Positions 10,785 through 32,686 of a stretch of 32,686 nt of DNA are shown piece after piece; position 1 is the first letter of the stretch, and every line of letters begins with the position of its first letter. This DNA comes from Candidatus Zixiibacteriota bacterium (GTDB lineage Bacteria > Zixibacteria > MSB-5A5 > GN15 > JACZUZ01). The notes below the pieces were generated by a model. The model did not search any database, had not been told where the DNA came from, and was given only the letters and a program-made list of their open reading frames with translations. The stretch lies in assembly GCA_024280835.1 (NCBI GenBank), contig JAJRPJ010000020.1:1-32686 (forward strand), given 5' to 3'. The position numbers and the translations under genes are program-made.

Positions 10785-11365
10785 TTACTTCTGGCCAGCG
10801 GCTTCTCTTATCCATTTCCATAGTTCGGGGGCGCCTCGGCCTGTTACTGCTGAGAAAGGAATCACTTCGCCACCGACTGCGATATTTATTTTTCGAATGG
10901 CTTGAGCTAGCTTATTGCCGCTGAGTTTGTCGCATTTGGTGAGAACGATTGTGAAAAGAACTTCATTGTCAGTTAGCCACTCGAACATGTGCCTGTCATA
11001 GTCTGTTAAGTCACGTCTGGAATCTATCAAACACACCATTCCACTGAGCGTGCCACCATCTGCGAGATATTCATCTGTGAGTTTGCCCCATTGCTCACGC
11101 ACCGATTTCGGCGCGCGGGCATAGCCATAGCCAGGTAAATCGACAAAATAGTATTTATCGTCGACTTCAAAAAATTGAGCGCCTGTGTTCGACCTGGAGT
11201 TGAGGATGTCTTACAGAGGCGTTTTTGTCCGAGGATTTTGTTAATCAACGAAGACTTACCGACATTCGAACGCCCACCGAAAGCCACTTGGGGTTTTCGG
11301 TCCTGCGGAACTTGCGTGAGGGCATACGCCGAGAGCTTGAAAACTGCTTTGGGTTGGTTCTTCAT
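10785..11365 (-). pseudogene. engB: Ribosome-biogenesis GTPase EngB/YihA/YsxC, one-base frameshift
   Basis: Two reading frames together encode a complete EngB, the GTPase needed for 50S subunit assembly. Frame one (from ATG 11365) gives [13 protein letters not shown] (G1) and [14 protein letters not shown] (G2). Frame two gives [18 protein letters not shown] (G3 DLPG) and continues through TKCD (G4) and SAVTG (G5) to a stop at 10785. The switch falls in a run of six A at 11169-11174 (T6 on the coding strand); one extra T would restore a normal 193-residue protein. No other lesion is visible. Causes could be a sequencing or assembly slip in the homopolymer, a real recent mutation, or recoding, because the coding strand reads T-TTT-TTG, a canonical -1 slippery heptamer. 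It lies 18 bp after lon, the order known from Bacillus lonA-ysxC. Confidence 0.9.
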
Positions 11366-18007: not shown

Positions 18008-18496
18008 TCAGTTTTTTGAACGTAAGGAATCAATTAGTGGAGAATCGCTGCGCAGTTTCTGGATATGCCATCGATTGATTCCACCGGGCGCATCACTGTC
18101 TGTGCTAAAGACATCGATAAACAAAAATGTATCAATTTCTAATTCAGGTATTAACAAGCGCACATGCTTTCTCAGTCGAGGAGCGGTGATATTGACTGGG
18201 AACGCATATTGTAAGACTCCACTGAATTCACCAATTTCATTGCCATAGAAAACAGCTGTGTCGTCGAAGAGTCCATCGATTTGTTTGTCATAGATGAAAT
18301 AGCCAACTGTCTCAGCCAAGTCGAGAGCGGTGACCACTAAATTGGATGAGTCTGCGCTGACTACTTGACATGAGAATACTGCAACTCGCTCATTGGACAA
18401 TGAACAAGAGCTAAGAGTTATCATCAAGAGCGCAGCGCTTAAGAGGAAACTTCGTAGGGAGAAAGATTGAATCAGGCGACAGTCACCTCTTTGCAC
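18008..18496 (-). CDS. Small lipoprotein of unknown function
   Basis: The 162-residue product has a hydrophobic N-terminal stretch ending in a lipobox (LMITLSSC), so it is probably lipid-anchored. The mature domain of about 130 residues is beta-rich with alternating Val/Leu strands and acidic loops, without recognised motifs. The GTG at 18496 overlaps the aldolase gene by 25 bp; AGAGGTGA lies inside the aldolase end, just ahead of a possible CTG or later start, so the true start may be a few codons in. Overlap points to co-transcription with the aldolase, which is unexpected for a lipoprotein and may only reflect compact gene packing. A C-terminal segment [19 protein letters not shown] ends the protein. 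No family is assigned. Confidence 0.65.
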
Positions 18497-19521
18497 AAGT
18501 AGACATCCTGAATGGCGTTAAGGAGTTCAACGCCTTCCTTCAAAGGTTTTTGGAAAGCCTTACGTCCTGAAATCAGTCCAGTTCCACCAGCTCGTTTGTT
18601 GATAACTGCGGTGGTGACTGCTTGCGCTAAGTCACCAGAGCCAATGCTGGCGCCGCCAGAGTTGATTAACCCAGCTTTGCCCATATAGCAGTTAGCGACT
18701 TGATAGCGACAAAGGTCGATCGGATTGTCACTAGAAAGCTCTGAATACATTTTGGGGTGAGTTTTGCCAAATTTCACAGCGCTAAAGCCGCCATTGTTCT
18801 CTGGCAGTTTTTGCTTGATAATATCAGCCTGAATAGTGACACCCAAGTGGTTGGCTTGACCAGTTAGATCTGCGGCGACATGGTAGTCCTTGTCGGCTTT
18901 GAAAGCGTTGTTACGCACATAACACCAAAGCACAGTGAACATTCCCAGTTCATGCGCCTCACTGAACAATTCAGAGATTTCTTGAATCTGCCGTGAGGAT
19001 TCATCGGAACCATAATAAATTGTGGCGCCAACTCCCACGGCTCCCATATCAAAAGCATTCTTGATTGAAGCAAACGGAATTTGGTCGAATGTCGCAGGAT
19101 AGGTCATCAGCTCATTATGATTGAGCTTGAGAATAAAAGGAATTTTGTGCGCGTATTTACGAGAGACCATACCGAGAACCCCAAAAGTTGAAGCCACGGC
19201 ATTGCAACCGCCTTCAATCGCCAATTCGACTATTTTGGCTGGATCAAAATAATCTGGGTTGGGCGCAAATGAGGCCCCTGCAGTATGCTCAATGCCTTGG
19301 TCGACTGGCAAGATCGAGACATAGCCAGTGCCACCCAAACGGCCTGTGCCGTAGAGTGTTTGCAAAGCTCGCAAAGTGCGAGGAGTTCTGTCGCTGTCGG
19401 TCATGACACGGTCAACGAAATCAGAGCCAGGCAAAGCCAGTCTGTCGCTTGAGATTTTCGGGGTATTGAATGTCAGCAAATCTTTTTGCTCGCCGAGCAA
19501 TGATTCGATTTTAGTGTACAT
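18472..19521 (-). CDS. fbaB: Class I fructose-bisphosphate aldolase (FbaB/DhnA type)
   Basis: The 349-residue enzyme cleaves fructose-1,6-bisphosphate to glyceraldehyde-3-phosphate and dihydroxyacetone phosphate through a Schiff base, in glycolysis and gluconeogenesis. It matches the bacterial and archaeal class I type: [16 protein letters not shown] near the N-terminus, [11 protein letters not shown], the long [15 protein letters not shown] region, [13 protein letters not shown] and a Gly-rich phosphate-binding loop [13 protein letters not shown] followed by [14 protein letters not shown] metal-dependent class II enzyme is excluded by the lack of its His ligands in the expected arrangement. 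Length is typical of this subfamily. Only a weak ribosome site is seen. The small lipoprotein gene overlaps its 3' end, so the two form a likely operon. Confidence 0.93.
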
Positions 19522-19688: not shown

Positions 19689-20060
19689 TTATTTGCGACG
19701 GCGTTTCAAATACGCTGCGCCTGCCAAACCTAATGACATCAGGAGGGCCGAAGCTGGCTCAGGCACCGGAGCCGAATTGTCGTCATCATCATACCCATTT
19801 TCATCATCATAGCCGTTTTCATCAACATGATGTTCATAAGAACTTCCCCAAGAAGAGCCGCTACTTGATAGATATGGAGCGCCTGGGAAGTGATTTCCAT
19901 TATTGTAGCCGTTTTGACTCTGGTGGCCACTTGGCGGTGGGGAATATAACGGTGTCGTCGGTAAGGCAAAAGTCGCGCCACCGAGCGCCAAGAGAGAAAG
20001 AGTCAGGATTATTAAAGATGCCGACCTGACAATGGATATATTCTTGTGTGTCTTTAGCAT
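19689..20060 (-). CDS. Small exported PEP-CTERM protein
   Basis: The 123-residue protein has a classic tripartite C-terminal sorting signal: VPEPASALL, a hydrophobic segment and the basic end KRRRK. Such tails are recognised by exosortases and found on proteins of exopolysaccharide or biofilm matrices. The N-terminus is a signal peptide (MLKTHK, hydrophobic core, cleavage after FALP or ATFA). Between them is a low-complexity spacer: Pro/Ser/Gly/Asn-rich, then an acidic DENGYDDENGYDDDD stretch. There is no enzymatic domain. I chose the ATG at 20060, since AGGAG sits nine bases upstream of it; the frame extends to 20090. No exosortase gene is in the window. It stands alone, with its own terminator. 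Confidence 0.88.
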   Translation of the reverse strand: MLKTHKNISIVRSASLIILTLSLLALGGATFALPTTPLYSPPPSGHQSQNGYNNGNHFPGAPYLSSSGSSWGSSYEHHVDENGYDDENGYDDDDNSAPVPEPASALLMSLGLAGAAYLKRRRK

Positions 20061-20069
20061 GTCCATGCA

Positions 20070-20074
20070 CTCCT
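20070..20074 (-). promoter_or_regulatory. Ribosome binding site of the PEP-CTERM gene
   Basis: AGGAG on the minus strand is nine bases from the ATG at 20060 and only three from the ATG at 20066. It also lies inside the longer open frame that begins at 20090. It therefore favours the start at 20060, which gives a compact signal peptide. Confidence 0.6.
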
Positions 20075-20385: not shown

Positions 20386-21693
20386 TTAGGCGCTTTTTTT
20401 CTTGGGGCGAGACTTGATAAACTGCGGTTTTCCCTTGCCTCGAATGACATCGGCTGTGACAACAATCTCTTCGACATCGGACATAGATGGGGCCTCGTAC
20501 ATCAGTTCAAGCATGGCTCTTTCGAATACCGATCTCAAAGCGCGCGCTCCTGTCTTGCGTTTTTTGGCCTCAGTGACTGCCAATTGCAGCGCCTCGGGTT
20601 CAAAAGAAAGACGAATTCCGTCCATCTCCAGAAGCCGCATATATTGTTTGACCACGGCGTTCTTAGGCTCGGTCAAAATCGACATCAAGGCCTCTTCATC
20701 GAGTGCATTAAGTGGAGCAATAATTGGCAGACGGCCAATCAATTCTGGGATTAGGCCATATTCGAGCAAGTCAGATGGAGTGACATAGCTCATGATATCT
20801 GTGGAATTGACGTCAATAGATGTGCGGTTAACATCAAATCCAAGACGTTTGTTGCCTTCACGGCGAGCAATGATTTTATCGAGACCATCGAATGCTCCAC
20901 CACAGATAAAGAGGATATTCGAAGTGTCAATTTGCACAAAGGCCTGTTCGGGATGCTTGCGTCCACCTTTAGGCGGGATATTGGCAACTGTGCCTTCAAG
21001 GATTTTCAATAACCCTTGCTGAACTCCTTCACCCGAGACGTCGCGAGTGATTGACGGGTTGCCGTCTGTGCGAGAAATCTTATCAATTTCGTCGATGTAA
21101 ATTATGCCACGCTCTGTCGCCGCGGCGTCAAAATCAGCGGCTTGGTAAAGTCGAACCAAAATATTCTCGACATCCTCACCAACATAACCAGCTTCAGTGA
21201 GCACTGTAGCATCAGCAATACAAAACGGCACACGCAAAAACTTTGCGAGTGTCCGAGCCAGAAGAGTTTTGCCAGTCCCTGTAGGGCCCATCAAGAGTAT
21301 GTTCGATTTTTCTAAATCGACATCGGCGCCATCGGACGCGCCTTTGCCGCCAGAGGGAGACGTTTCTTTACGGACAAGATGATTGATTCGTTTGTAATGA
21401 TTGTAAACTGCAACCGCAACCGAACGCTTGGCAAGCTCTTGGCCAATAACATAGGTATCAAGATGGGCTTTGATGTCCTCAGAGATAGGAATATCCACCA
21501 GCTCTGATGGTAAATCTGCATCGGCCGATGATTTGAGAATATCAGAACATAGTCCAACACACTCATTGCAAATATAGGCCTCATGACCAGCAAAGAGACG
21601 TCTTACTTGCGCGCCTGGTTTGCCGCAAAAAGAGCACCGTTGGGTAAGTTCTGTATTATCTGGAGGTTCTCCAGAGGTTTTGTCGCGAGCCAC
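20386..21693 (-). CDS. clpX: ClpX, ATPase subunit of the ClpXP protease
   Basis: ClpX is the hexameric AAA+ unfoldase that feeds proteins to ClpP. The 435-residue product has the zinc-binding domain with Cys at 20, 23, 42 and 45 (CSFC...CNEC), Walker A GPTGTGKT, Walker [11 protein letters not shown], sensor regions and the C-terminal domain with [13 protein letters not shown]. The pore loop is GYVGEDVE. The IGF-type loop that docks on ClpP corresponds to NKRLGFD. A short low-complexity insert ([15 protein letters not shown]) follows the N-terminal domain. It is downstream of clpP by 84 bp and ends in Lys-rich codons that overlap an inverted repeat at 20358-20394. It follows the conserved tig-clpP-clpX order. 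Confidence 0.97.
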
Positions 21694-24353: not shown

Positions 24354-25349
24354 TTATGGCGCAGATGTGGGGCATATCGGCGCAGGTCCGCCAATGAAAA
24401 TGTAGCGAATTAGATAGGTAATATCTGACACATTGACAGATCCATCGCCATTGGCATCCCCAGGTATCGCGCAGAGAGCGGTGGTTCCACTACAGACATC
24501 GCCGACACCGTCGTTATTTGTATCCACTTGGAAGGGATTGGCAATAGTTGGGCAGTTATCACAAGCATCAGGGAAACCATCGCCGTCTGTATCGGCTTGA
24601 GTCGGATTTGAGATCTGTGGGCAATTATCACAAACATCGCCAACACCATCACCGTCACTATCTATTTGCATGGGATTCGCTGTCATTGCACAATTATCGC
24701 AAGCGTCACCAAAGCCGTCACCGTCACTATCGGCTTGATCAGGGTTGAATGTTGTGGGACAATTATCAAGACAACCAAGCAGTCCATCTCCATCTGGGTC
24801 TTCGGTATCCGAACAGGCGATTGTCACTGTTCCACCTATGAATGTGGGGAAGATTAACACATTGTTGGCATCTGCCAGAACAATGTTTTGACCTGAGTTA
24901 GCATAATCTGTCGAATCGATAGTGATTACTTCGCTAGTGACAGTCGGATTAGGTGTGTACCAAAAGGTGAAGAGAAGTGAGGTTCCTGGCGCTACAAAAA
25001 ATGGAGGCATAGTCACAAAGCCTGCGATGATTTCATTTGGCGCGCCTGATGTGTCCACAAAAGAAAGATAGTCATCACCAGAGAAAAACTCTTGCCCCAC
25101 AAGACCACCAACGAAAGTCACTGAGTCCAGTGCTAAGGTCGTTGAACTGGGACTTAACCCAACTACAGCGGCTTGGAGAGATTGGTCATAAACTCCAAGA
25201 ACCCGCAATCCAAAATGCTGACCTGGCAAAATTGTCACGCTTTCGACAATAATTGAATCAGGCAGTCCTGGGTCTTGGGCGAATGCTGGAGCTGAGAGAA
25301 GTCCAGCAGAGGCGATTATCAAAGCCATAAACAATTTGCGAGTACTCAT
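24354..25349 (-). CDS. Secreted protein with TSP type 3 repeats and a dockerin-like end
   Basis: The 331-residue protein starts with a clear signal peptide (MSTRKLF, hydrophobic core, cleavage at PAFAQ). Residues 30-180 form a beta-rich domain resembling cohesin- or immunoglobulin-like secreted modules, without a firm assignment. Residues about 184-290 hold five calcium-binding thrombospondin type 3 units of the form DSDGDGxGDxCDNC, four of them 23 residues apart. The last 35 residues, [20 protein letters not shown] onward, match one calcium-binding dockerin-type segment and its hydrophobic helix. AGGAGGA at 25355-25361 is an excellent ribosome site. It has no C-terminal anchor or T9SS tail. 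It diverges from the hexose phosphate mutase gene across 249 bp. Probably a calcium-stabilised extracellular adhesion or structural protein. Confidence 0.85.
24489..24770. repeat. 69-bp tandem repeats encoding TSP3 units
   Basis: Near-identical segments recur every 69 bp (for example around 24560, 24629 and 24698), each encoding one 23-residue thrombospondin type 3 unit with its Asp-rich calcium-binding loop and paired Cys. The first copy, nearest the protein start, is diverged. The repeats are coding, in frame, and confined to this gene. Confidence 0.85.
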
Positions 25350-27265: not shown

Positions 27266-30200
27266 TTACTTCAAAAATACCATCTTACGGGTGGAAGTAT
27301 TCTCACCTGCTGTCAGCTTGTAGAAATACAATCCTGAACTAACGTCCTGCGCATCCCAAGTGACAGTCACAGCGCCTTCACCGACACCACTAAACTCATG
27401 CACTTTTTGTCCAGCGACATTATAGATGCTCAAATTGTAGGCCATCGCTTCTGGCAAGTTGAAATCAATCTTAGTCGAAGGATTGAATGGGTTCGGATAG
27501 TTTTGATTCAAGGTAAAGCTCGTAGGTAGAATCGAACTAACTGAAACTCCTATAAAAGCTCCATCGACATCTGATGCGCTTGCGCTCAGCAAGACTGAAC
27601 TGCTGGTGACTATCTCGCCGACATGGAGAGTTTGAGCGGTTACCGTTAGGTCATTGAGGTTCGGAATAACAAGCGCGTAGGTCCGACCATCGCGCTCCCC
27701 AACAACCATACTCATTTGACTCTGCAATAAAATCACATCGGCAGTTCCCTCAAAGACGAACAAGGCCGCTCCAAGCTCAGTGTCTGCACTGATAGTTCCT
27801 GAAGCGTTACTATTGAAAGTGATTGACTCTGTGTTATGGGCGAGCTTAGCCAATGGCAGAGCATCGCCGACAATTACGCGGATTAGATAGACCAAATCAG
27901 CGACTGTTAGCGGAATACCATCGCCATTGATTTCACTCGCGGCGATTGATCCAGCTTCATGCGGTGAGAATGAACCCAACCCGGAGACAAAATATTCGGT
28001 GAACATGACCGCATCAGCGATTTCATTGTCGACACCATTGAGGTTAATATCTCCTCGACCGTCGATTGAGTCTGCACAAATGATATCAACACCACCGTTG
28101 ATAAACGTCAGACACTGTATCGGCGCTGGCTTACCTGGTCCACCACCAACTAGACACTCTGGTTGAGTTCCGAGGTAAGTTGGGAAACCAGCGGATGCGT
28201 CATTGATTGGATTTGGATTACCGAAGTCATAGACGAACTCGCTGACGAATGTTGTATCACCAGTTTGGTCGGCCAGTGTATTGTCACCGCAATCCATCCA
28301 GAAGAATCTTACTGGAGCAAATTGACATTCCAGTGTTCGGTCATTGCTAACACTGAAACAGATTTGCGCAAGCTCCACAGGGTCTGTTGTGCTTGGGCCA
28401 AAACAGGCTGGATGATTCACACCATCATTAGTTTCTGCAATTGCGATAATACGCAACACGCCTGATGGACAGGCTCCAGAACAATTTCCATTGGCGCCGA
28501 AGCGGTATGTGAAGTATTCCCATCCGCAACCCTCGATAAACGAACCAGGGTCTGCTCCCAACGCGACTAGAGCCGAATTATCATAGGCAATCAGGAGATC
28601 GAAACCACCAAACGACCGCGCGCTTCCCTCGGTTGTAATTGAGAGACAGACTCTTTCACCTTGGAGGATATTGTGCGCTTTTTCTAGCGTGATTGTTGGA
28701 CACCCACCACACACTAGAAGGTCTTCCTGAATGACATCGACGACGGTTGTGCAAGAAACGGAGACGCCACATGAATCTGTAGCGGTGACAACAATATTAT
28801 ATGTTCCGGCCGCTCCAGGTGTGAAGCAAACCGAAGAGCCGTTCAATGTGCCGTTGTTGACTGTGACGTTCATCAAATTGCCATCATCTGTGACACTAAT
28901 ACCAGGCACACAGACAGTCGCGGTCGATGGATCGCAAACAGTTGATGTGAAGGCCGCTGGACAGGTTATCTCAGGCGCGACATTGACCGTAGCTCTATGT
29001 TCAATAACGATGGTGTCTGCGCGGCCACAGCTATCGGTGGCAATCAAAGTCGCAAATTGACTCGATGTTTGTGTGGTCAGGGTAAAGCAAACTGAATCAG
29101 CTTTGAGAGTTCCAGCGCCACTGATAGTGTAGGTAATCGGAGCCGAGCCACCAGTTAACGCTGGGATGGGCAAACAGGCTTCGCCAGCGGAGCAAGTGAA
29201 GCCAATGTCCTCTAGTAATGTCGAACTGGCGAATGACGGCGCAGCGTTGAAGTTAACTGTTACGTCTGCTGAACATGTATCAGCGGAACCACATGAGTCG
29301 ACAACAACACAAGAGATCGTATAGACACCTGCTGTATCAGGTGTGAAACAGATATTCGTTCCAGAAATTGTACCAAAGCTGTATGTCACACTGACAATAT
29401 TATTGTCGACATCAGATGAACTAAATGGCCCGACACAGATATCTTCAGGGGCACAGATTGAGACTATCTTATCTGATGGGCAGTTAACCAGTGGAGCGGT
29501 ATTTAAGGTTACTGTCACACAGTAGTTCACAACGTCTGTGAGTCCACAGCTATCAGAGATTGTAACTTGATCACAATAGACACCAGCAGTGTCACCCACA
29601 ACAAAACATGCAGTCGAGTCATTCATATTCACCCAACCGAGCGAACTGATTCCACTGAGCCCATTGTCAGGGTCAACTACCGAGAACTTCGTGCAAACTG
29701 TGTCACCTACGTTGCAAGTGAATGTTGTTGAGCTTGCAGCTATTGTAACTTGTGGCGCAGTATTGACTGTTGAATTAATTGTGATAGTCGCTGTATCAGC
29801 ATTGCCACAGTTATCGGTGACGATTATCTGACGCGATACGGAGGTATTCATGTCCAAGAAGACACAAACCGAGTCACTGATTACTGCGCCATCGGCGGTG
29901 AAACTAAACGGCGCCGCTCCATCTGTAACTGCTGGTAGTGGGAAGCAGACTGTTGCAGTATCACACAAAGCGATATTAAAGACTTCATCGGCGATTACCG
30001 GAGAGGGACTCATATCGACGGTTACAGAAGTAGTACATGACGCGCTGAGATTGCATGAATCAGTAGCGGTCCAAATGATGCTATACACTCCTGCTGTATC
30101 AGGTGTGAAACATACTTCTCCGTTCACCAAGGTTCCGAAGCTCACTGATGAACTCAAAAGATTTCCGTCGGTGTCAGTGGCGGAGAATCCAGCGACACAA

Positions 30201-32686
30201 ATTTCTGCTACAGAGCAGAGCGTGACTGCGGTGTCATTTGCACAAGTAACTTGTGGCGCGTTGTTGAAAGCTACAGTCACCAAAGTTGTGCATGAAGCGC
30301 TGGCTCCACACGAATCAGTGATAGTGCAAACTAAGGTATAGACTCCAGCGGTATCTGGTGTGAAACAAATATCAGACCCAGATGGCGTTCCGAGATTATA
30401 TGAAACGCTGGCGACATTGCCATCAACATCACCTGAACTAAACGGCCCGACACAGATTTGCTCCGATGCACAAAGGAAGATTGCGGTGTCTGGCGCACAG
30501 GATATTGTCGGTGCGCTATTGACTGTAACCGCTATACAGTAGAGAGCTGTATCAGAAAGTCCAAAACTATCGGTGACAATAAGCTGGTCACAGTATAGAC
30601 CAGAGGTGTCGACTGCAAAACGAATTGTTGAATCCACAAAAGAAACAATTCCAAGTTGGCTGGTTCCGCTGAGGCCATTGAGTCCGTTATCAGGATCAAC
30701 GACACTGAAGGGAACAAAAACACTATCACTGGTAACGCAGACAGAGGCGTTTGTTGTGTCAATCAGGACTATTTGTGGAGGAGCGTTGACTGAGCCAGTG
30801 ATTGTCATGGCGGACGTGTCGGCTTTACCGCAAGAATCAGTGACAATAATTTGGAGTGTCACGGTAGTGTTGGTTCCCAAGAAGACGCAGGCAGAATCTG
30901 TGACTGGTGTTCCGTTGGCGGTAAAGGTAAATGGTCCGGAGCCACCAGTTACTGTCGGCAGAACAAAACAGACGGTGGCGGTATCAGAAAGAGAGATACT
31001 GAATGACTGATCAGCGATAAGCGGCGGTGTGGTATAGGCCACGGTCACCAAAGTTGTGCATGATGACTGAGCGCCGCAGGAGTCGGTGAGAGTGGAGATT
31101 ATTGAATAGACACCAGCTGTATCTGGTGTGAAGCAAACATCATTACCAACAAGAGTACCGTTCGTATACGACGAACTCATCAGGTTGCCGTCAGGGTCTG
31201 AGGCGCTGAAAGGTCCAACACAGATTTGTTCGGGGCCACAAAGTGTGAAAGCCGTATCTGACGGACAAGTAGCTAAAGGTGGACTGTTTAGAGTGATAGT
31301 CACTATAGTCACAGATGTATCGGCAAGGCCGCAAGAATCAGTTGAGACGAGAGTGATGGTATTGGCTCCAGCTACTGGAGTGAAGCAAACCGTGTCATTT
31401 GAAAGTGTTCCGCCGTTAACAGTTAAAGTTGCGAGATTGCCATCACTGTCTGTGGACGTAAAGCCAGGCAGGCAGATTTGAGACAAATCGCAAACAAAGA
31501 GTGCGGAATTAGCTGGGCTAGTAGCCACAGGAGCCGCATTGAGAGCGATGGTCACAGTTGTCACACATGTGTCAGCAACACCGCAAGAGTCAGTGGCATT
31601 CAATGTAATCGTGTTTGCTCCAACTACTGGAGTGAAACAAACAGTGTCACCAGAAAGCGAGCCGTTATCAACGATCGCGCTCATCAAGTTCCCATCGGAA
31701 TCAGTTGCGCTGAATCCTGGTAAACAAATATCACTCAAGTCACAAACGAAGAGTGACAAATCTGTCGGACAGGCTACAACCGGCCCGTTATTGATTGCAA
31801 CTATTACAGTAGTCACGGTTGTATCAGCTAGGCCACATGAATCGGTAGCAATCAAAGTGATGACATTGGCTCCCATCACTGGGGTGAAGCAAACTGTATC
31901 GCCAGAGAGAGTACCACCTGTTACCGAAACTGCTGATAAGTTACCATCCGCATCACTGGCTCCAAAGCCAGTCAAACATATGGCGCTCATATCACAAACA
32001 AAGAGTGTATCGTCGACTGGTGAACTTGCAACAGGGGCGCTATTGAGAGTAACTGTCACTGTTGTAACACAGGTATCAGCGATTCCGCAAGAATCTGTCG
32101 CGATTAGCGTAATGGTGTTGGCGCCAGCGACTGGAGTGAAACAAACAGTATCACCTGAAAGCGCCCCATTGTCGACGCTGACACTCAGCAAGTTGCCATC
32201 GGCGTCAGTTGCGCTGAAACCAGGCAAACAAATATCGCTCAGATCACAAACGAAGAGAGCCAAGTCTGTCGGACAAGCAACAACTGGAGTGGCATTGACC
32301 GTCACAGTTACTGTCGTCACACTCGTATCAGCAAGTCCGCAAGAATCAGTGGCGATTAGAGTCAAAGTATTGGCGCCAGCTACTGGAGTGAAGCAAACCG
32401 TACCGCTAGAAAGTGTTCCACCGCTAACAGTCATAGTTGCAAGATTGCCATCACTGTCTGTGGCTGTAAAGCCTGGCAGGCAGATTTCTGATAAATCACA
32501 AACGAAGAGAGCCGAATTTGCAGGACTGGTTGCAACAGGAGCGGCATTGAGAGCGATGGTCACTGTGGTCACACATGTGTCGGCGACACCGCAAGAGTCA
32601 GTGGCAATCATTGTAATCGTGTTGGCTCCAACTACTGGAGTGAAACAAACGGTATCACCTGAAAGAGAACCATTATCAACACTAGC
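27266..32686 (-). CDS. Giant secreted Cys-rich repeat protein with T9SS sorting domain (5' end outside window)
   Basis: At least 1,806 residues are encoded, and the frame is still open at the right edge, so the start and signal peptide are missing. The first 465 or so visible residues are near-identical 84-residue Ig-like modules with regular Cys (FVCDLS, TVCFTP, TDSCG). More diverged modules of 82-89 residues follow, arranged as a duplicated four-module block. Then come two further modules and a cohesin-like domain (around 28150-28705) with a VCLSITTEG strand and FGGFDLLIAYDNSALVA. Next are two dockerin-like calcium segments, GRGDINLNGVDNEIADAVMF and EINGDGIPLTVADLVYLIR. The last 87 residues, with NYPNPFNPSTKI and GLYFYKLTAG, form a type IX (Por) secretion sorting domain. 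It is probably cleaved and attached or released at the cell surface, acting as an adhesin or matrix protein. Regular Cys suggests disulfide-stabilised modules. Confidence 0.9.
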   Translation of the reverse strand, partial: ASVDNGSLSGDTVCFTPVVGANTITMIATDSCGVADTCVTTVTIALNAAPVATSPANSALFVCDLSEICLPGFTATDSDGNLATMTVSGGTLSSGTVCFTPVAGANTLTLIATDSCGLADTSVTTVTVTVNATPVVACPTDLALFVCDLSDICLPGFSATDADGNLLSVSVDNGALSGDTVCFTPVAGANTITLIATDSCGIADTCVTTVTVTLNSAPVASSPVDDTLFVCDMSAICLTGFGASDADGNLSAVSVTGGTLSGDTVCFTPVMGANVITLIATDSCGLADTTVTTVIVAINNGPVVACPTDLSLFVCDLSDICLPGFSATDSDGNLMSAIVDNGSLSGDTVCFTPVVGANTITLNATDSCGVADTCVTTVTIALNAAPVATSPANSALFVCDLSQICLPGFTSTDSDGNLATLTVNGGTLSNDTVCFTPVAGANTITLVSTDSCGLADTSVTIVTITLNSPPLATCPSDTAFTLCGPEQICVGPFSASDPDGNLMSSSYTNGTLVGNDVCFTPDTAGVYSIISTLTDSCGAQSSCTTLVTVAYTTPPLIADQSFSISLSDTATVCFVLPTVTGGSGPFTFTANGTPVTDSACVFLGTNTTVTLQIIVTDSCGKADTSAMTITGSVNAPPQIVLIDTTNASVCVTSDSVFVPFSVVDPDNGLNGLSGTSQLGIVSFVDSTIRFAVDTSGLYCDQLIVTDSFGLSDTALYCIAVTVNSAPTISCAPDTAIFLCASEQICVGPFSSGDVDGNVASVSYNLGTPSGSDICFTPDTAGVYTLVCTITDSCGASASCTTLVTVAFNNAPQVTCANDTAVTLCSVAEICVAGFSATDTDGNLLSSSVSFGTLVNGEVCFTPDTAGVYSIIWTATDSCNLSASCTTSVTVDMSPSPVIADEVFNIALCDTATVCFPLPAVTDGAAPFSFTADGAVISDSVCVFLDMNTSVSRQIIVTDNCGNADTATITINSTVNTAPQVTIAASSTTFTCNVGDTVCTKFSVVDPDNGLSGISSLGWVNMNDSTACFVVGDTAGVYCDQVTISDSCGLTDVVNYCVTVTLNTAPLVNCPSDKIVSICAPEDICVGPFSSSDVDNNIVSVTYSFGTISGTNICFTPDTAGVYTISCVVVDSCGSADTCSADVTVNFNAAPSFASSTLLEDIGFTCSAGEACLPIPALTGGSAPITYTISGAGTLKADSVCFTLTTQTSSQFATLIATDSCGRADTIVIEHRATVNVAPEITCPAAFTSTVCDPSTATVCVPGISVTDDGNLMNVTVNNGTLNGSSVCFTPGAAGTYNIVVTATDSCGVSVSCTTVVDVIQEDLLVCGGCPTITLEKAHNILQGERVCLSITTEGSARSFGGFDLLIAYDNSALVALGADPGSFIEGCGWEYFTYRFGANGNCSGACPSGVLRIIAIAETNDGVNHPACFGPSTTDPVELAQICFSVSNDRTLECQFAPVRFFWMDCGDNTLADQTGDTTFVSEFVYDFGNPNPINDASAGFPTYLGTQPECLVGGGPGKPAPIQCLTFINGGVDIICADSIDGRGDINLNGVDNEIADAVMFTEYFVSGLGSFSPHEAGSIAASEINGDGIPLTVADLVYLIRVIVGDALPLAKLAHNTESITFNSNASGTISADTELGAALFVFEGTADVILLQSQMSMVVGERDGRTYALVIPNLNDLTVTAQTLHVGEIVTSSSVLLSASASDVDGAFIGVSVSSILPTSFTLNQNYPNPFNPSTKIDFNLPEAMAYNLSIYNVAGQKVHEFSGVGEGAVTVTWDAQDVSSGLYFYKLTAGENTSTRKMVFLK
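29246..31285. repeat. Duplicated block of four modules (A-B-C-A)
   Basis: Two consecutive blocks, about 30263-31285 and 29246-30262, encode the same order of module types with lengths near 85, 82, 87-89 and 85 residues. Type A has ICVGPFSxxD and CFTPDTAGVY, type B has TVCFxLPxVT and QIIVTD, type C has FSVVDPDNGLxG and GLYCDQ or GVYCDQ. The blocks are 341 and 339 residues long and diverged, indicating an old segmental duplication. Confidence 0.75.
31286..32686. repeat. 252-bp tandem repeats with 504- and 1008-bp higher order
   Basis: Five complete units of exactly 84 residues (252 bp) and one partial unit at the edge follow each other without gaps. Units alternate between a type starting with ACPTDL and a type starting with SPANS or SPVDD, giving a 504-bp period. 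The edge units (32294-32686) match those at 31286-31678 more closely than their neighbours, giving a 1008-bp period. The array continues beyond the window. Confidence 0.88.

Follow-up and report, generated by a model that had tools for sequence, protein, structure and literature searches.

A PEP-CTERM protein gene and a type IX secretion sorting domain in one Zixibacteria contig: two C-terminal sorting systems encoded across the phylum

Introduction

The question raised by this locus is whether one bacterium of the phylum Zixibacteria sorts proteins to its surface by two different C-terminal routes. The locus lies in a contig of 32,686 nucleotides (the window, by which we mean this whole stretch of DNA). 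There, a short gene appeared to end in an exosortase signal of the PEP-CTERM type, about 7 kb from the C-terminal (Por) domain of a type IX secretion system (T9SS) substrate. The original prediction, made from the window alone, held that these routes are usually noted in different lineages, that their presence on one contig implies two C-terminal sorting pathways in the organism, and that the genome should be searched for the genes of both. The parts of Haft et al. 2006 (PMC1569441) used here describe PEP-CTERM/EpsH as a sorting system tied to exopolysaccharide (EPS), in which target genes stand alone and have long regions upstream, and a passage of PMC3237569 names the Por signal as architecturally different.

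Results

A small PEP-CTERM gene between clpX and an aldolase gene

The gene (19689..20060, minus strand; 123 aa and a stop codon) is a single gene between clpX (20386-21693, minus strand) and a gene for class I fructose-bisphosphate aldolase (18472-19521, minus strand), both neighbours being named by profile match. A likely ribosome-binding site read from the sequence, AGGAG (20070..20074, minus strand), precedes the ATG at 20060 with a spacing of 9 nt; a second in-frame ATG two codons upstream is only 3 nt from AGGAG. The protein starts with a likely signal peptide (residues 1-32, MLKTHKN...GGATFA; 19965..20060, minus strand), recognized by its hydrophobic stretch and with a cleavage site read by eye. 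The mature part of 66 residues is acidic and of low complexity, with no K or R, 10 D/E residues, and G, S, N, P and Y at 40 of the 66 positions. The acidic stretch that had been noted in this spacer is present as the repeat DENGYDDENGYDDDD (residues 80-94 in the translation; 19779..19823, minus strand).

The protein ends in VPEPASALLMSLGLAGAAYLKRRRK, and its PEP-CTERM tail (VPEP motif, hydrophobic helix and KRRRK) occupies 19692..19766 on the minus strand. The tail matches TIGR02595 over residues 99-123 (E 2.7e-6, 27.8 bits, cut-off 16) and PF07589 at 27.3 bits (cut-off 20.7), which bears out the proposed VPEP...KRRRK exosortase signal with its coordinates exact. In a six-frame search of the whole genome, the tail was recovered at E 2.5e-6 as one of four with E ≤ 7.2e-5; the three other places listed had E 1.2-2.2, under the cut-off. 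Because these next-ranked places have only E > 1 and are under the cut-off, the window tail is not a chance match. Among 14 controls for this search, 12 matched at E 10 (2 over the cut-off) and none at E 0.01. When searched in 40 genomes including its own, the window protein matched in 19 at E ≤ 0.01, mostly via the tail. A phage origin of the protein was rejected, as a PHROGs search gave no match at E ≤ 0.01.

An open reading frame this short and of such low complexity, with no known mature domain, might not be an expressed gene at all, or its tail might be an ordinary C-terminal membrane anchor. We regard both as very improbable, given the well-placed ribosome-binding site and a counterpart in a genus-mate, G074 (L170:4647-5132). 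The counterpart is in the same slot, between fructose-bisphosphate aldolase and clpX, and its 161-aa product keeps the same layout at 43% identity: a signal-peptide-like start, an acidic mature part and a PEP-CTERM tail of 22.2 bits. The tail is thus over the cut-off in both proteins, and the genome that carries the window encodes an exosortase (below). At 104 residues with D+E = 29, against 66 residues with D+E = 10 in the window protein, the mature part of the genus-mate protein is both larger and richer in acidic residues, which indicates that the spacer is conserved in character and not in sequence. An acidic spacer of this kind may bind cations or matrix sugars.

T9SS tails and T9SS machinery

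The T9SS type A C-terminal sorting domain (Por_Secre_tail) lies at 27278..27499 on the minus strand (TIGR04183, 43 bits, cut-off 23; PF18962, 42.6 bits, cut-off 27), 7.2 kb from the PEP-CTERM signal and so at the distance first given for it. It ends a large repeat-domain protein (27266..32611, minus strand; 1781 aa as listed, in an open frame of 1806 in the genome). Between the two tails is a gene (24354-25349, minus strand) for thrombospondin type 3 repeats with a dockerin-like end (Dockerin_1, 21.6 bits, cut-off 22.9). Elsewhere in the window, a YihA/YsxC GTPase gene (10785-11365, minus strand) is broken into two overlapping reading frames, which cover TIGR03598 positions 2-63 and 84-185 of 186, suggesting either a frameshift or an error in the sequence.

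The search for T9SS genes that the original prediction had called for found SprA (TIGR04189, 555 bits, cut-off 200), PorU (NF033707, 666.6 bits, cut-off 420) and, directly after PorU, a gene for a PorV_fam protein (207 bits, cut-off 90; 149 bits with the PorV equivalog model, below its 250). The count of proteins bearing each tail came to 47 for Por, these being over the cut-off among 51 listed in a six-frame search with TIGR04183, and to four for PEP-CTERM. Three of 14 controls matched in the Por search, one of them over the cut-off. GldM (TIGR03517) was matched in none of four genomes of the family; the controls were also silent in this search, and since a positive control was lacking the blank is not counted as absence.

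The exosortase locus

The original prediction depended on an exosortase being present, and the search found one of the EpsH type together with EpsI. This single exosortase, on contig C8, matches PF09721 at E 1.9e-70 and TIGR02602 at 190.4 bits (cut-off 105.55). It passes the cut-off of no subtype: the top scores were for XrtD (213 vs 400) and XrtW (212 vs 425), and XrtA was nearest to its cut-off (191.5 vs 208). Cys190, Arg235 and His256 are invariant in all 15 aligned Zixibacteria exosortases. These we take to be the catalytic residues of the family and hence the likely active site.

An EpsI-family gene overlaps the end of the exosortase gene (TIGR02914, 90.7 bits, cut-off 42.8) and is followed by a gene for a UbiA-family decaprenyl-phosphate phosphoribosyltransferase (DPPR synthase; NF008977, 276.4 bits, cut-off 234). 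Next, in this genome and in the genus-mate, is a gene for a type III PKS-like protein (L055:15092-16210; best NCBIfam model DpgA, 163.5 vs a cut-off of 425). On the side opposite from the DPPR synthase, 6-15 kb from the exosortase (L056), are EPS-type genes, encoding a nucleotide sugar dehydrogenase (445 vs 189.8 bits), a GDP-mannose 4,6-dehydratase (445 vs 415) and SLBB/Poly_export and Wzz proteins over their Pfam cut-offs. None of the four PEP-CTERM proteins is encoded on the exosortase contig.

Upstream of the four PEP-CTERM genes, the best matches to a sigma-54-type motif of the proteobacterial type had 8, 7, 8 and 9 of 11 positions, levels reached by 43, 96, 32 and 3.7% of 300 shuffles. 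These matches make no convincing case for sigma-54 control, with three of the four within the shuffled expectation; the fourth belongs to L005 (9/11, 3.7%). A row of similar, secreted-looking proteins of ~180 aa, then two larger genes that by eye are chaperone-/usher-like, is found at L055:4409-12541. A Pfam scan of four of these proteins gave only a weak DUF4402 match in one (21.8 bits, cut-off 25.2) and no support for a chaperone or usher.

Both systems belong to one organism

The genome is 3.31 Mb in 20 contigs, with an estimated completeness of 96.1% and contamination of 0.37%, and the window is its contig C5. Nearly all of the named relatives found in Zixibacteria are titled as MAGs, and it could be argued that a chimeric contig or bin has brought together tails of two different organisms. 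The contigs themselves speak against this. The window, of 32.7 kb, holds both tails; on contig C8, a Por-tail protein is encoded 15 kb from the exosortase; SprA and PorU share C12 with a PEP-CTERM protein; and C13 and C14 each encode one PEP-CTERM protein along with Por tails. The low contamination and the occurrence of the PEP-CTERM gene at the same place in the genus-mate point the same way. In addition, two relatives assembled as single contigs (G088 and G114) each have SprA, an exosortase and PEP-CTERM. With its own contigs mixing both systems and two single-contig relatives carrying both, chimerism, which by its own terms would have refuted the original prediction, is not tenable.

Both systems are the norm in Zixibacteria

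We surveyed 132 genomes of the phylum. SprA matched in 129 (E ≤ 0.001; 123 over the cut-off), exosortase family members in 108 (90 with the full-length EpsH type and 18 with only a weaker, mostly short type) and PEP-CTERM in 99. SprA, a full-length exosortase and PEP-CTERM occur together in 87. The presence of both sorting systems is therefore the norm for Zixibacteria and not an oddity. We call an exosortase full-length when its best E is < 1e-30; contig ends truncate a few of the 90, and the 18 of the weaker type include one genome, G027, whose match is full-span but divergent (E 3.1e-18).

Full-length exosortase and PEP-CTERM go together: 87 genomes have both, 3 have the exosortase only, 12 have PEP-CTERM only and 30 have neither (Fisher 9.5e-17, with the kinship of the genomes ignored). 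The same four classes held 55, 2, 3 and 17 genomes in a high-quality subset of about 77, compiled by hand from rounded figures. This tight co-occurrence supports a working pair. The weaker exosortase type had no link to PEP-CTERM (5 genomes with and 13 without, compared to 7 and 17 among genomes with no exosortase match; p 1.0). Some of the 12 genomes with PEP-CTERM and no full-length exosortase match, which include G023 and G039, are fragmented, but G023 is one contig and 84% complete.

The short exosortase found in many relatives is near XrtH, the partner of IPTL-CTERM, in all four cases scanned (L172:4155-4694, L173:4511-5083, L174:4374-4976 and L175:4779-5375; 86.0-93.5 bits, cut-off 86). 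A gene for a small hydrophobic protein adjoins it in several loci, and two proteins encoded nearby (L171:5020-5496 and L172:3001-3561) have other tripartite tails (PVLTQWG... and VPGLTYPG...), for which no NCBIfam model matched at E ≤ 0.01.

Exosortases outside the phylum and the question of a link to T9SS

For comparison, we used 11 exosortase genomes from outside the phylum. The initial set had 14, of which three (L122 = G017, L139 = G029, L095 = G066) were removed as phylum members with identical SprA coordinates; L126 and L135, with no phylum in their titles, were placed outside by tree position. SprA was found in three of the 11 (two KSB1, one Eisenbacteria) and had no match in the other eight. 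PEP-CTERM was present in all six that were searched, including the three with SprA. Public MAGs titled Ignavibacterium, FCB group or Calditrichota (L085, L095, L122 and L139) coincide with phylum genomes, so their titles look wrong or vague.

In a tree of 80 exosortases, 43 of the 44 rows from Zixibacteria cluster with two from KSB1 (support 98/97), and the remaining one (L111) falls with the rest. L100 was left out of the tree for ORF length, and L084, L107 and L151 are among the loci assigned to Zixibacteria by judgement or matching coordinates. This grouping fits long residence of the exosortase in the phylum rather than recent gain.

The two systems might be linked, with exosortase-processed PEP-CTERM proteins crossing the outer membrane through the T9SS translocon or sharing its anchor pathway. 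A passage of PMC7468200 describes the outer-membrane step of PEP-CTERM export as unknown, and none of the 87 genomes that combine a full-length exosortase with PEP-CTERM lacks a SprA match. We nevertheless judge a link improbable. SprA is near-universal in the phylum regardless of exosortase, so its co-occurrence with exosortase carries little information; the eight outside genomes without a SprA match suggest that T9SS is not generally required for the exosortase route; and the Por tail model matches none of the four PEP-CTERM proteins in the genome studied here. A link between the routes is not indicated by these sequence comparisons.

A DPPR synthase gene beside the exosortase

The order exosortase, EpsI, DPPR synthase recurs in the phylum. 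In 45 of the 90 Zixibacteria genomes that have a full-length exosortase, a DPPR synthase gene (PRK12324 family) is ≤ 3 kb from it, at 667-772 bp in 42 of them and at 123-161 bp in three. EpsI usually fills this gap where the ORFs were read, as in the genome studied here (L055:16281-18749, on C8). Among the other exosortase genomes, 4 gave no DPPR synthase match and 41 have the gene farther away: in 37 it is on a different contig, many of these assemblies being fragmented, and in 4 it shares the contig at a distance of 4.4 to 252 kb. Within the set of 80 exosortase loci, the DPPR synthase adjoins the exosortase in 23 of 44 from Zixibacteria, with a 24th 4 kb off on the other strand, and it is present in none of the 36 from other phyla, several of which are short. 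At one locus (L065:9929-13471), the genes after the DPPR synthase encode DUF362, a NapG/NapH-like ferredoxin protein and DUF6599; a weak DUF6599 match was also found at L066:4755-5300 (23.2 bits, cut-off 27).

This arrangement raises the idea that the Zixibacteria exosortase operon carries its own anchor-making step, and that the PEP-CTERM acceptor could be a polyprenyl-phosphate-linked pentose or a glycolipid derived from it. We think this rather doubtful. Of the 132 genomes, 119 have a DPPR synthase (86 of the 90 that have a full-length exosortase and 33 of the 42 that do not), and because it is near-universal regardless of exosortase, a private anchoring role can be put forward only as a possibility.

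Discussion

Our preferred reading, to which we give a probability of about 0.88, is that the window gene encodes a small surface or matrix protein of the PEP-CTERM class that is handled by the single EpsH-type exosortase, that T9SS acts in parallel on different cargo, and that both systems are old in Zixibacteria and widely retained there. What the computation shows directly is the tails, the enzymes, how these are distributed together and which genes surround them. The core inference of the original prediction is thus correct and the rarity it claimed was overstated. Two C-terminal pathways are encoded, one by the exosortase, EpsI and four PEP-CTERM proteins and the other by SprA, PorU, the PorV-family protein and 47 tails, and sorting by each is predicted from sequence. 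The pairing itself is not unusual, as 87 of the 132 phylum genomes have all three markers and it is seen too in the three exosortase-bearing KSB1 and Eisenbacteria genomes tested.

By analogy with known families, the routes for export, cleavage, attachment and final location would be as follows. The window protein would be exported by the Sec pathway and held in the inner membrane by its C-terminal helix, KRRRK facing the cytoplasm. The exosortase (Cys190, Arg235, His256) would then cut near VPEP and join the new C-terminus to an acceptor, and the processed protein would reach the outside, probably within exopolysaccharide. The ~47 Por-tail proteins, including the large neighbour in the window, would leave separately by means of the SprA translocon, a PorV-family shuttle and the PorU sortase.

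By itself, the window gene is an ordinary annotation, and its value is mostly in the phylum-level pattern and the lead from the operon. A whole phylum with classical exosortase/PEP-CTERM and T9SS genes is a natural comparison for how surface cargo is divided between two C-terminal routes. The exosortase acceptor, like the way PEP-CTERM proteins cross the outer membrane, is not yet settled in the field, and for the acceptor the conserved order of exosortase, EpsI and DPPR synthase points to a specific candidate that can be tested. If that candidate is right, surface proteins of one bacterium would receive one lipid-sugar from the exosortase and a different one from PorU. The literature searched, which covered few subscription journals, yielded no report of a phylum-wide pairing of classical PEP-CTERM with T9SS, no paper on exosortase, PEP-CTERM or T9SS in Zixibacteria, and no joint mention of exosortase with decaprenyl and phosphoribosyltransferase.

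Co-occurrence of an exosortase-family enzyme with T9SS is not new as such, because Flavobacterium johnsoniae has both. According to the parts of PMC10936215 cited here, it has XrtF, of the exosortase family, together with T9SS, and mutants of both affect surface colonization. The XrtF substrates are predicted there to be unlike PEP-CTERM, whereas the Zixibacteria enzyme is of the EpsH type with classical PEP-CTERM targets. An XrtF gene is also listed for Apibacter raozihei in a portion of PMC12645872, and an excerpt of PMC7662799 deals with PEP-CTERM in Janthinobacterium and cites T9SS in a reference.

Compared to the known type A T9SS, the genome has the same SprA, PorU, PorV-family protein and tails (47), and differs in that GldM was not detected, in a search without a positive control. 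The likeness to PEP-CTERM/EpsH, as described in the parts of PMC1569441 used here, is close: a signal-peptide-like start, PEP motif, helix and basic end in the target; an EpsH-family enzyme and EPS genes; several targets per genome whose mature parts have little homology; and a window target whose gene stands alone, 325 bp from clpX on its upstream side. Relative to the same description, the genome has only four targets versus a median of eight, and there is no convincing proteobacterial sigma-54 site upstream. Its exosortase, moreover, is far below the XrtD and XrtW cut-offs and just below that of XrtA. Finally, EpsI differs from that description in being a separate, overlapping gene, and the genes that follow it here are those for DPPR synthase and the type III PKS-like protein.
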